Shown here: positions 2,010 to 59,031 of the stretch, piece by piece
How positions within the stretch are numbered: the first letter of the stretch is position 1
Layout of the letters: each line of letters begins with the position of its first letter
NCBI GenBank assembly: GCA_030710605.1
Contig: CP092863.1
Span: forward strand, 140,437,547 to 140,501,546
Direction: 5' to 3'
DNA from: Cordylochernes scorpioides
Taxonomy: Eukaryota; Arthropoda; Arachnida; Pseudoscorpiones; Chernetidae
DNA: 64,000 nt
Notes under the pieces: model-generated
Databases searched by the model: none
Seen by the model: only the letters and a program-made list of their open reading frames with translations
Told to the model about the DNA's origin: nothing
Position numbers and translations under genes: made by a program

Positions 2010-2466
2010 TAGACCTATACAGCCGAACAGAAAAAAAGACTGGAGAGAGTATAGTAAATAAACAGATTAGATATTCAATTATACATATCAGAATACCACC
2101 TATTGAATAAAATTTGCATATTATTCAAGCACTTTTCTAATCATATAAATCATCAGAAAAAATCCTCTGAAAACCATATCTTGCGATGGTACAAAATGGT
2201 AAGATTAGACAACTTGGCTCATCAGTGGTCAAGCTTCTTTACAGTATCACCCAATTAATGAATATTTTCCAAGGATAAGAAATGCAAATTTTAGATAAAA
2301 GAGTTAACTAATACATAGCAATAACGCGCCATCTATATAATACAAATGAAAACACCAAAACGCGAATGTTTCTTTTCACAAATAAATCAAACTTCTACTG
2401 TCCTAAAAGCTTATGTCCATAGTTTGCTTAAAAACCATTTCTAAGATTCAACCCTTCAGTGTTGCA

Positions 2467-2474
2467 TATAAAAG
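2467..2474 (+). promoter_or_regulatory. TATA-like box upstream of family A2 ribozyme core
   Basis: TATAAAAG lies 49 nt upstream of the predicted cleavage nucleotide (2516). Copies at 44.65 kb and 58.92 kb keep TATATAAG at the same distance, so the spacing looks selected. Transcription from such a box would start about 20 nt before the ribozyme cut. Confidence 0.5.
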
Positions 2475-2509
2475 CAGAATGATGCAATACAGTATTAGAG
2501 ATCTAAAGA

Positions 2510-2576
2510 AGCGGTCTGGTAAATTAAATTGGCGAAACCGCTAGGAGAGTTCACCACTGATGAGCCAAGCCCTCCC
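2510..2576 (+). ncRNA. Hammerhead-like ribozyme with swapped strand order (family A2)
   Basis: Parts in order: stem III 5' strand AGCGGT (2510-2515), cleavage nucleotide C (2516), stem I 5' strand TGGT (2517-2520), 8-nt linker, stem II 3' strand TTGGC (2529-2533), GAA (2534-2536), stem III 3' strand ACCGCT (2537-2542), 10-nt linker, stem I 3' strand ACCA (2553-2556), CTGATGA (2557-2563), stem II 5' strand GCCAA (2564-2568). All three helices pair fully and all core residues match the hammerhead consensus. The order of the three strands is not one of the three natural types. An extra pairing can form between 2543-2549 and 2570-2576. Activity is not shown by sequence alone. Confidence 0.55.
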
Positions 2577-2665
2577 AATATATTTTTTTCATCGCAGTAA
2601 GGGCAGTAGAACTTTGATTTATTTGTGAAAAGAAACATTCGCGTTTTAAGGTTTTCATTTGTAAA

Positions 2666-3092
2666 AGAGTTAACTGTTTAGAAACTAGTATAAGACAGAA
2701 CTACCTGCTATATAAAGTTTGGTGTGTAAGGTGATAGAGAGGTAACAAAAGGGAAGGTAGAGGTTCCAAATGATTGATATTATGGATTAATGATATTGAT
2801 ATAAATAGAACGCCTATACAAATACTTAAAATATCATGAATCAATCATTGTATGGCTATAAGTGATTACAAATGATTAATAGGTAGCTCAATAGATATCT
2901 CGCTCCAATTTGCATAAATCCAAATTCAACAATGAGTGCAAATTGGCAGAAACCTATCGAGCACGTTTCGTTACACTTTCTGGAAATACTTTTAATTTTA
3001 CTACTTCCTCTGATACATTTTAGTAAAAATGGCGAACTCTTCTCATCAAAATATGAATAAAATATGAACGGTTACTTCTTGTGAACTAGTAT
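2666..3092. other. AT-rich intergenic DNA
   Basis: No gene, tRNA or clear repeat family recognised. The text ATGATTGATATTATGG and similar AT-rich words recur without a defined unit. Confidence 0.4.
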
Positions 3093-13999: not shown

Positions 14000-15320
14000 A
14001 TTGCAGTAAGGGCGGTAGAAATTGTTTAATTTTTTATCGCGACTTTTGAATTTTCGCGGGTTACGTATATTCGAATTTCGATCTTTTTGTGGCTTTATGT
14101 TGGTACTCATGTCTCTCACTTATGCCGACAAGCTCGGCCATTTTGAATGTTCACTTAATTGTTGACAGCTGCTTTGCTTGCAGGTGTTTTGGATCGTCTT
14201 CGATTTTTACCTATTAAAAAATGGATCAAAGAACCTGTATCAAATTTTGTGTGAAAAACGAAATTAAGTGCGCGGATGCATTCCGAATGTTGGCTGTGGC
14301 ATACAGAGAAGCTACCTTGGACCGAAGCAACGTTTATCGGTGCTACAAAATGTTCTCAGAAGGCCGAGAAGATGTGAACGACGAAGAGCGTGCCGGACGC
14401 CCGAGCACTTCAACAACAGACGAAAAAATGAATGAAGTGGAGAAAATGATATTGGCCAATCGTCGAATCACCGTTAGAGAAGTTGCTGAGGACCTAAACA
14501 TATCGATTGGCTCGTGCCATTCGATTTTTATCAATGATTTGGGCATGAGACGGGTCGCCGCGAAATTCGTACCAAAATTGCTCAATTGCGACCAAAAACA
14601 GCATCGCATGAACATTGCTAATGAGATGTTGGACTCTGTCCGCGACGACCCAAATTTTCTCCAGAGGGTCATAACTGGTGACGAAGCGTGGGTTTATGGT
14701 AATGACGTGGAAATTAAAGCTCAATCATCTCAATGGAAGCTGCCGCACGAACCAAGACCGAAAAAAGCGCGCCAAGTTCGGTCGAATGTGAAAGTTTTGC
14801 TGACAGTTTTCTTCGATTGCAGGGGCGTGGTGCATCATGAGTTCTTGCCACAGGGTAGAAAGGTCAATAAGGAATATTACCTGCAAGTTATGCGTAATTT
14901 GCGCGAAGCAATCCGCCAGAAACGCCCGGATTTGTGGAAGAACAAAAATTGGCTTTTGCACTACGATAACGCCCCTGCTCACACATCGTTGCTTGTGCGC
15001 GACCTTTTGGCCAAAAACAACACACTAATGATTCTGCAGCCACCGTATTCCCCAGATCTGGCCCCCTGTGACTTTTTCTTGTTCCCTAAACTGAAGAGGC
15101 CCATGAAAGAACGACGTTACGCTAGGCTTGAATCGAAGGAGGAGCTGAAAAAGATTTTTAAAAAAGATTTTTTTGAAGTGCTTCGAAGATTGGAAAAACC
15201 GTTGGCACAAGTATATAATATCTCATGGGGATTACTTTGAGGGGACCCAATAGGTATTCATGAAAAATAAATAATATTTGAAAAAACACAAAAGTCGCGA
15301 TACTTTTTGAACACACCTCG
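14000..15320 (+). mobile_element. mariner element with 5' terminus replaced by family A sequence
   Basis: The 3' terminal repeat (15280-15320) reads AAAGTCGCGATACTTTTTGA then ACACACCTCG, followed by TA. At the 5' side only the inner part (about 14034-14050, ATCGCGACTTTTG) matches; the outer ~18 bp are replaced by a family A end (TTGCAGTAAGGGCGGTAGAA at 14001-14020). The element cannot be mobilised from this end. Confidence 0.75.
14221..15240 (+). CDS. mariner transposase (DD34D), C-terminal frameshift
   Basis: 339 residues, close to the usual ~345 of mariner transposases, which cut and rejoin DNA at TA sites in the nucleus. An N-terminal helix-turn-helix pair covers about 1-110. Catalytic Asp residues are D154 (ITGDEAW), D249 (HYDNAPAHTS) and D284 (YSPDLAPCDFF); D249 and D284 are separated by 34 residues, the mariner signature. 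After about residue 315 the frame slips in a T run near 15168-15174. The expected end (CFEDWKNRWHK, then HGDYFEG) is found in the next frame and would stop at 15251-15253. The core is intact but the C-terminus is wrong and the 5' terminal repeat is damaged. Confidence 0.93.
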   Translation: MDQRTCIKFCVKNEIKCADAFRMLAVAYREATLDRSNVYRCYKMFSEGREDVNDEERAGRPSTSTTDEKMNEVEKMILANRRITVREVAEDLNISIGSCHSIFINDLGMRRVAAKFVPKLLNCDQKQHRMNIANEMLDSVRDDPNFLQRVITGDEAWVYGNDVEIKAQSSQWKLPHEPRPKKARQVRSNVKVLLTVFFDCRGVVHHEFLPQGRKVNKEYYLQVMRNLREAIRQKRPDLWKNKNWLLHYDNAPAHTSLLVRDLLAKNNTLMILQPPYSPDLAPCDFFLFPKLKRPMKERRYARLESKEELKKIFKKDFFEVLRRLEKPLAQVYNISWGLL

Positions 15321-18010: not shown

Positions 18011-18019
18011 CTATTTTAG

Positions 18020-18300
18020 AGGCGTAATATTCTTTTAAAAATAAAACAATTTCTACTGTCCTTACTGCGATGGAAAAATTAAAGGGAGGGCCTGGCTCAT
18101 CAGTGGTGAACCCTCCCAGCGGTTTCGCCAGTTTAATTGATAATAGTTTAAACTGGCGAAACCGCTGGGAGGGTTCACCAATGATGAGCCAGGCCCTCCC
18201 TTTAATTTTTCCATCGCAGTAAGGACAGTAGAAATTGTTTTATTTTTAAAAGAATATTACGCCTCTAAAATAGTTTTATAATTTGATAACAGATGGCGCT
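18020..18300. mobile_element. Family A1 long palindrome
   Basis: Two arms of about 120 bp meet at TTGATAATAG (about 18138-18147). Both arms share variants not seen in other copies, such as CTGTCCTTACTGCGATGG and its complement. Right end reads AACAGATGGCGC. Each arm has the GAA and CTGATGA strands (ATGATGA in the right arm) but no cleavage strand. Confidence 0.85.
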
Positions 18301-36339: not shown

Positions 36340-36545
36340 CCATTAATCACGAATGCTTCTTTTTGAAGTAAAACAAACCTTTTGCTGTTTTTACTGCGAT
36401 GGAAAAAATATAATCGTAGAGCTCTAAAAAGCGGTCTGGTGGATTAAATTGGCGAAACCGCTAGGATGATTCACTACTGATTAGACACTCCATCCTAATG
36501 TTTCCATCACAGTAAGGACAGTAGGAGTATATGGACGACCTGAAA
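36340..36545 (+). mobile_element. Family A2 copy, shortened arms
   Basis: Left arm ATCACGAATGCTTCTTTTTG, TTTTTACTGCGATGG; core at 36430; right arm CATCACAGTAAGGACAGTAG. No TATA box remains. Confidence 0.7.
36430..36496 (+). ncRNA. Swapped-order hammerhead, mutated copy (family A2)
   Basis: Same 59-nt frame as 2510: AGCGGT, C, TGGT, linker, TTGGC, GAA, ACCGCT, linker, ACTA, CTGATTA. G8 of the core is changed and stem II is lost, so it should be dead. The additional helix survives with changed bases: AGGATG (36463-36468) pairs with CATCCT (36491-36496), where other copies have GGGAGG and CCTCCC. Confidence 0.6.
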
Positions 36546-38952: not shown

Positions 38953-39023
38953 GCATCGGTGGTTCAGTGGTAGAATGCTCGCCTGCCACGCGGGCGGCCC
39001 GGGTTCGATTCCCGGCCGATGCA
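38953..39023 (+). tRNA. tRNA-Gly(GCC): tRNA-Gly (anticodon GCC)
   Basis: 71 nt with acceptor stem GCATCGG/CCGATGC and discriminator A, D arm around GGTTCAGTGG, anticodon arm CTCGC-CTGCCAC-GCGGG with GCC at 38985-38987, and T arm GGTTCGATTCC. Internal boxes A (TGGTTCAGTGG) and B (GGTTCGATTCC) are consensus RNA polymerase III promoter elements. A run of T follows immediately (39024 on), serving as terminator. No intron. It matches the known animal tRNA-Gly-GCC closely, so it is probably a functional gene; a recent tRNA retro-copy is the alternative, though no CCA is encoded. Confidence 0.95.
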
Positions 39024-39687: not shown

Positions 39688-39746
39688 AGGAGTATGGTAG
39701 ATTAAAATGACGAAACCGCTGGGAGGGTTCACCACTGACGAGCCAG
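39688..39746 (+). ncRNA. Swapped-order hammerhead, worn copy (family A1)
   Basis: 59-nt frame: AGGAGT, A, TGGT, linker, ATGAC, GAA, ACCGCT, linker, ACCA, CTGACGA, GCCAG. Core residues are all acceptable, but stem III keeps only its two pairs next to the cut and stem II has two mismatches. Confidence 0.5.
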
Positions 39747-39844
39747 GTCCTCCCATTATTTTATCTTTGCAGTAAGGGCAGTAGAAAATTGTTTATTTAA
39801 AAAAGAAACATACGCTTCAAAAATAGTTAAAATCTCTTTATATT

Positions 39845-44290: not shown

Positions 44291-44553
44291 TATATACACT
44301 CATTGACAAAACTTGAGTAAGAGGAATTTCTTTGATATTGCCGGACGTCTATTTATATCTGTGTATATATAAATAAATATATATTTTTTTAAGGAAACGG
44401 AGAGAATTTTGTTCATACTCGGTTATCTCGTGTGTTATCAACAAAGGTAACTCTGTACAGCAAAATAAAAACATTAAGACGCGAATGTTCCTTTTACACA
44501 TAAAATCAAACTTTTACACTGTCCTTACTGAGATGAAAAAATATTGTGAACGC

Positions 44554-44612
44554 TTGGCTCATCAGTGGTGAACCCTCCCGGCGGTTACGCCAATTTAATC
44601 TACCAGACCGCT
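44554..44612 (-). ncRNA. Swapped-order hammerhead, one core change (family A2)
   Basis: Minus strand, 59-nt frame: AGCGGT, C, TGGT, linker, TTGGC, GTA (A13 changed to U), ACCGCC, linker, ACCA, CTGATGA, GCCAA. All three helices pair (five of six in stem III). The A13 change should reduce or abolish activity. Confidence 0.6.
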
Positions 44613-48952: not shown

Positions 48953-49135
48953 AAATCATGGTAGATTAAACTGGCGAAACCGCTGGGAGGGTTCACTACT
49001 GATGAGCCAGACACTCCCATTAATATTTCGATTGCAGTAAGGGCAGTAGAAATTGTTTTATTTTAAAAAAGAATCATACGCTTCTAAAATAGTTTCGAAT
49101 TTTCATAACAGATGGCGTGCTAATGCATCAACATA
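48953..49135 (+). mobile_element. Family A1, right part
   Basis: TGGTAGATTAAACTGGCGAA, ACCGCTGGGAGGGTTCAC, TACTGATGAGCCAG, TGCAGTAAGGGCAGTAGAAA and terminus ACAGATGGCGTGCTAATGCA. Stems I and II can form, but stem III has no partner strand. Confidence 0.7.
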
Positions 49136-55966: not shown

Positions 55967-57274
55967 CAAGGTATGTCCCATAAGTTCCCGGACTGGGTCC
56001 ATAAAAAAATAAATAAATGGAAAATGTAAAAAAATTTGACTGTTTATTATAGAAAAAATATCTGGCAACACGGTGGTACCAATATCGAGTCGGTAGGTGC
56101 GCGCGCGCCAAGGTAATTCTAATTTATTTAAAGGTCACACCTAGCGCTGCGGCGATTTTACGATGGAACAAAAATTGAAGCAGAGGATTTGCATAGAATT
56201 TTGTGTGAAACTTCAAATATCTGCAACCGAAACTTTTGAAATGCTTAATAAAGTATTCCCCAATGACTCTCCAAAGAGAACAACTGTTTTTGAATGGCAT
56301 TCTAGATTTAAAGCTGGCAGAATTTCCATTGAAGATGAACCTCGGCAAGGACGCCCAAAATGTGCAAAAAATCACCGATTTGATAAAAGAAAATCCTCGA
56401 ACCACTTTGCTGGAGCTAGAGCAAGACACAGGCATCTCTAAAACAACGATTGGAAGGATCGTAACCAAAGATTTGAAGCTCAAAAAGACTCCTGCAAAAT
56501 TCATTCCAAGATTCCTCACTAATGAGCAAAAACTGTGTCGGCTTGCAACCTGTGAGAACACGTTGGAAATGACAAGAACGGATCCGGAATGGAAAGACAA
56601 GATAATCACAGGCGACGAGACATAGGTCTATGACTATGACCCTGAAACCAAGCGTCAATATGCCGAGTGGAGAGGTCAGGGTGAGCCTAGACCAAAAAAA
56701 TCCAGGATATTGAAATCCAGAAACAAGGTGTTGCTGGTCGCTTTTTTGGATAACAAGGGCATTGTTCATCACGAGTATCTTCCTGCAGGCCAAACAGTTA
56801 TTAAGGAAATGTATTTGGGCATTCTTCGCCGTCTAAGGGAAGCGATTCGAAAAAAAGGCCAGAAAAATCGTCTAATGGTGACTGGATCCTACACCATAAC
56901 AATGCCCGCCCTCACACAGCGCACTTGGTGACGAGTTTTTTTTTTTTTGGCTAAAAATGGGACAGAAATCCTGCCTCAACCACCCTATTCCCCAGACATC
57001 GCACCAATTGACTTTTTCCTGTTCCCCAAACTTAAAGCAGTTCTAAAAGGAAGACATTTTGACACCAGGGATGATATAATAGAAAAATCGCTGTTGGCAT
57101 TGAAGAGCATTCCAAAAGAGCTCTATAAAAACTGTTTCGACAATTTGGGGAAACGATGGCGCTGGTGCGTTGAAGCAAGGGGGGATTACTTTAAAAAGTT
57201 TTAATAATTTTTTAAAAAAATATCTTACCTTTTTTTTTATGGACCCAGTCCGGGAACTTATGGGACATACCTTG
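55967..57274 (+). mobile_element. mariner element with intact terminal inverted repeats
   Basis: 1308 bp between TA dinucleotides (55965-55966 and 57275-57276). The termini CAAGGTATGTCCCATAAGTT and, inverted, AACTTATGGGACATACCTTG match perfectly and continue through CCCGGACTGGGTCCAT, about 43 bp in all. The transposase inside is dead, so it could only move with help. Confidence 0.93.
56163..57204 (+). pseudogene. mariner transposase, inactivated
   Basis: Starts MEQKLKQRICIEFCVKLQI. A frameshift near 56358 separates GRISIEDEPRQGRPK from the continuation DLIKENPRTTLLELEQDTG. ITGDE with the first Asp is followed by a stop (TAG, 56623-56625) where Trp is expected. HHEYLPAGQ and RRLREAIRKK follow. 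In the second catalytic motif the Asp codon is AAC (56898-56900), giving HHNNARPHT. More frame breaks lie near 56870 and at the T run 56937-56948. The third motif YSPDIAPIDFFLFPKLK and the C-terminal RGDYFKKF are present. At least five lesions; different subfamily from the 14-kb copy. Confidence 0.93.
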
Positions 57275-58013: not shown

Positions 58014-58079
58014 ACCGGTATGATAGATTAAACTGGCGAAACCGCTGGGAGGGTTCACCACTGATGAGCCAGGCTCTCC
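58014..58079 (+). ncRNA. Swapped-order hammerhead (family A1)
   Basis: 59-nt frame: ACCGGT (58014-58019), A (58020), TGAT (58021-58024), 8-nt linker, CTGGC, GAA (58038-58040), ACCGCT, 10-nt linker, ACCA, CTGATGA (58061-58067), GCCAG (58068-58072). Stem II is perfect with C-G where A2 copies have T-A. Stem III keeps four pairs next to the cut, stem I three of four. The triplet is GTA. GGGAGGG can pair with CTCTCCC just downstream. Confidence 0.55.
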
Positions 58080-58199
58080 CTTTAATTTTTCCATTGCAGT
58101 AAGGGCAGTAGAAATTGTTTAATTTCAAAAAGAATCTTACGCGTTTAAAATAGTTTCGAATTTTGATAACAGATGGCGCGATAGTGCATCATATATCAA

Positions 58200-58964: not shown

Positions 58965-59031
58965 AGCGGTCTGGTAGATTAAATTGGCGAAACCGCTGAG
59001 GGAATTAACCACTGATGAGCCAAGCCTTCCC
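58965..59031 (+). ncRNA. Swapped-order hammerhead, fully paired copy (family A2)
   Basis: AGCGGT (58965-58970), C (58971), TGGT (58972-58975), AGATTAAA, TTGGC (58984-58988), GAA (58989-58991), ACCGCT (58992-58997), 10-nt linker, ACCA (59008-59011), CTGATGA (59012-59018), GCCAA (59019-59023). All helices are perfect and the core is consensus with a GTC triplet. The additional helix is GGGAA (59000-59004) with TTCCC (59027-59031), different from other copies but still paired. Best copy for testing. Confidence 0.6.

Follow-up and report, generated by a model that had tools for sequence, protein, structure and literature searches.

A predicted type-SGC hammerhead ribozyme in an abundant retrozyme-like element of the pseudoscorpion Cordylochernes scorpioides

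The closest described relatives of the locus reported here are the permuted hammerheads of Eckert, Friedrich, Weinberg and Weinberg (2023; PMC10085705), who describe the hammerhead as three blocks, S, G and C, and found natural ribozymes in the order S-G-C (type SGC). The part of that paper drawn on here gives 583 predicted SGC sequences, five of which were tested and cleave at the expected site, and describes an additional helix that ties stems I and II together at their far sides; disrupting it stops cleavage in the one such mutant tested (M8). Between stem III and this additional helix lie 0-44 nt, a few cases lacking a linker. According to the same part, non-circular permutations come from metatranscriptomes and metagenomes with unknown carriers, plus one weak bacterial candidate, and no SGC is given from the genome of a known organism (PMC10085705). 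Two further systems resemble the carrier of our motif. Animal non-LTR retrozymes, in the sections cited, are tandem units of ~300 bp with low GC content and type I hammerheads (PMC7229834), and the Penelope protein cuts and extends both strands of its target, the cited sections of the same paper recording no RNA-seq ends at the element's own hammerhead cut (PMC11167929). A literature search that reached few subscription journals found type SGC together with the hammerhead only in Eckert et al. 2023 (PMC10085705), a paper otherwise cited, as far as these records go, in two papers on structure superposition. At the level of titles and abstract openings, it returned no such permutation from an animal or plant genome. 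Cervera and De la Pena have reportedly described minimal type I hammerheads in Penelope-like elements.

We analysed a window of 64,000 nt of the C. scorpioides genome (contig CP092863.1), in which a first-pass annotation had noticed hammerhead parts in the strand order X-Z-Y, where X holds the 5' strands of stems III and I on either side of the cut, Y the 3' strand of stem I, CTGATGA and the 5' strand of stem II, and Z the 3' strand of stem II, GAA and the 3' strand of stem III. The letters at 58965-59031 and 2510-2576 match its description (Table 1), and both the order and the pseudoknot fold that it implies are borne out: all invariant hammerhead positions are present, with stems I, II and III in X-Z-Y order, in the repeat-family consensus and in the subfamilies A1, A2 and A3. 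The accompanying statement that no hammerhead with such an order had been described was wrong, the arrangement being type SGC as defined in the cited part of Eckert et al. (PMC10085705). All six copies said to share one frame exist, the one placed at 44554 running from 44612 to 44554 on the minus strand, and the core and stems I-III are intact in two of them (2510 and 58965). Both had been credited with a perfect core and all helices, which holds for the core and stems I-III only, since a fourth helix keeps five of seven pairs at 2510 and four of seven at 58965.

Table 1. Coordinates of the SGC motif at 58965, of other family copies and of associated features in the window.
Feature	Position	Strand	Details
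Block S: stem III 5' strand AGCGGT	58965-58970	+	equals A2 consensus
Nucleotide 17 = C	58971	+	predicted cut 3' of 58971
Stem I 5' strand TGGT	58972..58975	+	
Stem II 3' strand TTGGC, block G	58984..58988	+	
Core GAA (G12 A13 A14)	58989..58991	+	
Stem III 3' strand ACCGCT	58992..58997	+	
Fourth helix 5' strand GAGGGAA	58998..59004	+	consensus GGGAGGG; decayed, 4/7 pairs
Stem I 3' strand ACCA	59008..59011	+	
Core CTGATGA, block C	59012..59018	+	
Stem II 5' strand GCCAA	59019..59023	+	
Fourth helix 3' strand CCTTCCC	59025..59031	+	consensus CCCTCCC
SGC copy, A2	2510..2576	+	core GAA 2534-2536, CTGATGA 2557-2563
Copy 2510, stem III	2510-2515/2537-2542	+	
Copy 2510, stem I	2517-2520/2553-2556	+	
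Copy 2510, stem II	2529-2533/2564-2568	+	
Copy 2510, fourth helix	2543-2549/2570-2576	+	5/7 pairs
A2 element, best full window copy	2341..2663	+	13-bp target duplication aaaagagttaact, by eye
TATA-like box TATAAAAG	2467..2474	+	upstream of ribozyme; putative promoter
SGC copy, A1, nucleotide 17 = A	58014..58080	+	I 3/4, II 5/5, III 5/6, fourth helix 7/7
SGC copy, A1, decayed, core CTGACGA	39688..39754	+	I 4/4, II 3/5, III 4/6, fourth helix 7/7
A2 copy, broken core	44545..44612	-	GTA instead of GAA
A2 copy, broken core	36430..36496	+	CTGATTA
A1 copy without block S	48958..49085	+	starts at predicted cut (ATGGTAG)
Copy 48958, 12-bp duplication			ACATATTACATT, by eye
Head-to-head A1 pair, both without block S	18018..18266		18140-18018 minus, 18144-18266 plus

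To place the motif against chance, we used a descriptor comprising CTGANGA, GAAA, a T-H cut and contiguous stems, applied to both strands in all six block orders. At ≥13 bp it matched the window twice, at 2510 and 58965, both in S-G-C order with 4+5+6 bp, and 400 dinucleotide shuffles (one strand) gave 14 matches across the six orders, two of them SGC and a single one (GCS) at ≥15 bp; these controls rule out a chance origin. The same descriptor at ≥11 bp was run over the family loci and the window (718,938 nt, both strands, the loci having been picked for the family) and returned 58 distinct matches, all SGC and all of the same family (nine judged by eye), with the cyclic S-C-G order of type I, II or III hammerheads in none of the 58. 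Rfam reported no hammerhead at gathering cut-off in the window or in the 20 of 110 loci scanned, and likeness to a C/D snoRNA was set aside, the best Rfam match (snoU61) reaching 17.3 bits against a cut-off of 55. Elsewhere in the window lie an open mariner-type transposase frame (14221-15240; Transposase_1, 1.4e-17), a mariner-like stretch seen by eye near 56209-56620 and a tRNA-Gly (gcc) gene (38953-39023).

That a dispersed repeat carries the motif, as the annotation had proposed, is confirmed at genome scale. Whole-genome searches of the 2.62 Gb genome yielded 110 family loci in addition to those of the window; the loci are partly redundant (L001 and L031 repeat window copies, and L061 overlaps L038), and counts are therefore given as distinct sequences. 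With up to three mismatches, a 48-bp piece of A1 matches the genome 37,915 times (18,812 forward and 19,103 reverse), and the control, the same pattern read backwards, not at all. An exact pattern search of the genome_contigs and viral_contigs collections gave 0 matches in each, with no match in phages. Three subfamilies were distinguished, A1 (nucleotide 17 = A), A2 (C) and A3 (C, with a stem I reduced to three pairs). The core and four helices are complete in the A1 and A2 consensuses and, with the three-pair stem I, in that of A3; the hammerhead invariants CUGANGA, GAA, A15.1-U16.1 and A, C or U at nucleotide 17 hold in all three consensuses and in 71 distinct copies. Between subfamily consensuses, identity is 88-96% in the ribozyme, 64-75% in the 70 bases upstream and 78-84% in the 60 bases downstream. 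Among the 71 full A1/A2 rows, nucleotide 17 is C in 37, A in 31, T in two and G in one. Pairing was counted on 71 distinct copies that keep the core, lack indels and leave no more than two positions unpaired in any helix, a set that differs from the 71 full A1/A2 rows and equals them in number by coincidence; 20 of these copies (11 A1, 3 A2 and 6 A3) pair at every counted position of stems I-III and the fourth helix.

Covariation among genome-wide copies, which the annotation had named as a check on the fold, is present in three helices, namely stems I and II and the fourth helix, where it falls between subfamilies, and absent from stem III. The alignment comprised 40 hand-picked, well-preserved copies (39 distinct), made up of 20 of the 71 full A1/A2 rows and 20 A3 rows from a set of 21, the excluded row being A2. 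Across the 39 distinct rows, 96.1% of 838 cells were paired, against 35.9-55.9% with the partner slid by 1-3 columns, and both partners had changed in 37 cells, where shuffles gave 13.1 and 0 of 500 reached the observed value. Two of the five covariation measures showed no excess over shuffles, namely the number of doubly changed pairs (4 against 3.7; 260/500) and that of further pair types (15 against 15.9; 493/500). The stem II change already pointed out, TTGGC/GCCAA against CTGGC/GCCAG, is correct, and across the 39 distinct rows the outer pair of this stem is U-A in 29 and C-G in 10, its inner pair C-G in 31, U-A in 2, U-G in 1 and other in 5. Over the same rows, stem I pair 2 is G-C in 23, A-U in 8, G-U in 7 and other in 1, and fourth-helix pair 2 is A-U in 20, G-C in 17, G-U in 1 and other in 1. 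A hand tally of 20 distinct A3 copies gave G-C 5, G-U 6, A-U 8, A-G 1 and A-C 0 for the stem I pair, the path through a wobble that is expected for a maintained helix; the A-C form has 33 exact copies genome-wide, a bare count. Stem III shows no compensatory change in the 39 rows, two of its pairs being constant and the rest departing mainly by unpaired cells. Independent compensatory events are few and nearly all between subfamilies, on rows chosen for preservation, and across all 71 of the full rows individual pairs are frequently disrupted, the pattern of decaying repeats, with fourth-helix pair 40-63 being G-C in 51 of 71.

The fourth helix, overlooked by the annotation and reading GGGAGGG/CCCTCCC in the family consensus, has seven of seven pairs there and joins strands lying 3' of stem III and 3' of stem II, with TTC and G as its joints. 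It links the far sides of stems I and II in the family and is decayed at 2510 and 58965, which makes these two copies, the ones put forward for a cleavage assay, poor choices. Its presence also alters the reading of the linkers, given earlier as 8 and 10 nt: the I-II linker is indeed 8 nt, whereas the "10-nt linker" is mostly a strand of this helix. Stem III and the fourth helix are separated by 0 nt, and an objection that such a helix would be sterically impossible was dropped on finding the same direct join in the cited part of Eckert et al. (PMC10085705). Compared by description with that part, the pseudoscorpion motif resembles type SGC (HRIMA-1 motif) in its S-G-C order, core nucleotides, stems I-III and covariation of stems I and II, and in a helix that joins the far sides of I and II directly 3' of stem III (PMC10085705). 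It departs from the SGC set described there in its I-II linker (8 nt against typically 3), in a stem III that shows no compensatory change and in sitting in a genome, within retroelements, at tens of thousands of matches (PMC10085705). Block order, core nucleotides, the fourth helix and covariation in stems I and II mark the motif, as judged from its sequence, as type SGC, and its cleavage is a prediction.

The annotation missed the tandem, retrozyme-like nature of the carrier. Locus L038 contains a tandem dimer, positions 2331-2630 recurring at 2702-3001 (300 bases, 100% identity, spacing 371), and an inverted copy that is perfect over 267 nt. Within 600 bases, 18 neighbours on the same strand were listed, at spacings of 206-581, and six same-strand entries (L038, its duplicate L061, L016, L072, L081 and L084) have spacings of 362-390. 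Opposite-strand neighbours stand head to head in 52 of 58 cases, a few of which, at very short distance, may be one palindrome read twice. Element ends are variable, and eight copies show, by eye, target duplications of 10-15 bp: L001, L009, L012, L020, L024 and L028 (6 of 30 loci), L038 and the window copy at 48958. Within the best full window copy, 2341-2404 is an inverted copy of 2600-2663 at 92% identity. Set beside the cited sections on non-LTR retrozymes (PMC7229834), the family shares AT-rich tandem units of ~300-370 bp, duplications longer than 4 bp (by eye) and one hammerhead per unit; it has SGC in place of their type I hammerhead, which was absent from the loci and window scanned. 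With Penelope-like elements, as presented in the cited sections of PMC11167929, it shares tandem units and a pseudo-LTR that contains a hammerhead, and would share the cutting and extension of both target strands; it differs in the SGC order of its motif, no type I having been found in the sequence scanned.

The TATA-like box TATAAAAG recurs in the A1 consensus and takes the form TATATAAC in A3, beginning 32 bases 5' of the ribozyme in the A1 and A3 consensuses and 43 bases in A2. Several other features of the units were noted. In A2, the ribozyme is flanked by two complementary stretches, TTCTACTGTCC upstream and GGACAGTAGAA downstream (L038 2331-2701, A2/A3 units), and in A3 both flanking strands differ together (CTACAGACC/GGTCTGTAG); these flanks either form a closing RNA stem or are what is left of an inverted arm. 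A small hairpin like TTTGCGGAAGAGC..GCTCGATGCAAA occurs close to the 5' end of the unit in A1, A2 and A3 sequences (L015 1850-1780 minus, L038 2331-2355 and the A3 consensus). Two tRNA matches of equal score and with near-identical flanks lie near A3 elements (L069 1975-2047, L084 169-241) and are perhaps a tRNA-derived SINE.

Beside locus L015, across an N run and on the opposite strand, lies a reverse-transcriptase (RT) fragment (RVT_1, E 5.5e-8). A genome search with it gave 18,221 first-look candidates, the best 150 scored of which share 97-100% identity with the query; many of them keep an open frame of 815-817 codons, and among these 150 at least four pairs stand in tandem 4.25-4.28 kb apart. 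From its RT motifs, we take this 4.25-4.30 kb element to be of Penelope type. A GIY-YIG-like stretch was seen by eye, Pfam assigned no family (E up to 1) to the 577 codons submitted, and the literature search found no paper joining Naiad with a hammerhead. The genome contains a Penelope-type element laid out like the short elements, and this shared layout suggests that the latter may be moved by it.

The stretch between two of these RT genes (L111) has a single CTGANGA, at 619, and, at 570-650 in the untranslated part of the element, a second SGC layout: GACAT A | ATAAA, TAA, GGGG TT GAA ATGTC, GCTGGAA, T, TTTAT CTGATGA TCCCC G TTCCAGC. The two motifs are unrelated in sequence and share no helix sequences (AGCGGT/ACCGCT against GACAT/ATGTC, and likewise for the others). 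A four-helix SGC descriptor allowing up to two extra bases beside stem II, composed after the L111 motif had been seen, scored that motif at 23 bp and the 58965 copy at 20 bp, missed 2510, and gave none at ≥16 in 1000 one-strand window shuffles. The L111 motif has 809 genome matches with up to three mismatches (386 + 423; control 0). Among the matches listed, judged by eye, the first eight are exact and form one array, and the others carry one identical linker change; neighbours are mostly ~4.26-4.30 kb apart, and in mixed clusters minus-strand copies precede plus-strand ones, as in the short elements. One irregularity, an additional TT that separates stem II from GAA, occurs in every listed copy; the cited part of Eckert et al. 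notes additional bases (one or two) next to CUGANGA, not on the GAA side (PMC10085705). An outer pair, GAGATCT/AGATCTC, encloses the 570-650 motif, and Rfam found nothing at this stretch.

If linear cut RNA had been copied back, copies would be expected to start with TGGTAG, and copy starts were compared with the predicted cut. Eleven of 122 copies start at -1/0, all in L031-L060, loci fetched by a query that itself starts there, and several of these starts are also junctions with short matching bases. Among 20 copies picked by the downstream part (20 of the first 21 match places of the 48-bp A1 piece, the omitted one lying in L042), none starts at the predicted cut and three or four start about six bases downstream; since the footprint in L031-L060 is absent from these copies, we do not use it as evidence. 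Starts at or beside ATTAAAC/ATTAAAT, about six bases past the predicted cut, were noted in L100, L104, L107, L110 and L048 and at window positions 18140 and 17870.

We consider it very probable that these copies represent a type-SGC hammerhead in a short non-autonomous retroelement of ~371-bp units, present in tens of thousands of copies and working as set out below. A minor though real chance attaches to a fossil, that is, an SGC ribozyme active in source elements with nothing cut today; many copies, both named ones included, have lost parts of the fourth helix or core, but the 100% identical tandem and inverted units of L038, the 20 distinct fully paired copies and the near-identity of the 150 best-scored of 18,221 candidate RT copies, many with long open frames, point to recent activity. 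Conservation and covariation alone are also compatible with a fold that is conserved for reasons other than catalysis, with stem III and the fourth helix as two hairpins whose loops kiss and which serve as a signal for RT binding or priming; both hairpins are of the ordinary nested kind, and none of the 20 unselected copies starts at the cut. We nevertheless hold such a fold to be quite improbable, as the hammerhead invariants are kept in three subfamily consensuses, nucleotide 17 is nearly always A or C (G in one of 71 full rows), stems I and II covary as a hammerhead requires, and the layout is that of SGC ribozymes which, in the cited part of PMC10085705, cleave.

The inverted ends first suggested a plain MITE. 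A MITE derived from a DNA transposon and bounded by terminal inverted repeats, its palindromes producing the likeness to a hammerhead as a by-product, could draw on the inverse relation of 2341-2404 to 2600-2663 and on the mariner transposase within the window. Target duplications of varying length (10-15 bp, by eye), variable ends and tandem units rule out the plain form, and, together with the rarity of the motif in shuffles, leave this origin highly implausible.

For the type-SGC retroelement that we favour, the working would run as follows. A transcript would read through tandem units, and in it the SGC ribozyme would fold, with stems I-III and the helix tying stems I and II, and cut 3' of nucleotide 17, after AGCGGTC or AGCGGTA and before TGGT or TAGA. 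The product would be a unit RNA of ~371 nt with 5'-OH and 2',3'-cyclic phosphate ends, possibly circularised, which a Penelope-type enzyme would copy back at AT-rich targets, extending from both strands; such extension of both target strands would explain the head-to-head (and tandem) units. Cleavage, the processing of tandem transcripts, circles and mobilisation by the Penelope-type element are what we infer from the features above. TATA promoters set the transcript start at the usual distance downstream, so that, with the TATA-like box beginning 32 (A1, A3) or 43 (A2) bases 5' of the ribozyme, transcripts should begin at or just before it. A wider proposal, which we hold in even balance, is that in one eukaryotic lineage SGC has taken over from the type I hammerhead the task of processing the RNA of a Penelope-type retrotransposon and of its short satellites, two unrelated SGCs serving the autonomous and non-autonomous elements, and that A1 and A3 transcripts start at the ribozyme and shed the cap with about seven bases.

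The block order itself was already known; what is new is its place, in a genome, at such numbers and in a retrozyme-like element, to our knowledge for the first time, together with the presence in that genome of another SGC candidate, unrelated in sequence, within a Penelope-type element. The pseudoscorpion family numbers tens of thousands of matches, falls into several subfamilies and has a partner element that looks young; it provides this permutation with a host, a likely means of spreading and a history of compensatory changes. It thereby makes testable how such a permutation of the hammerhead arises, and how a linker-less helix 3' of stem III fits the hammerhead fold.
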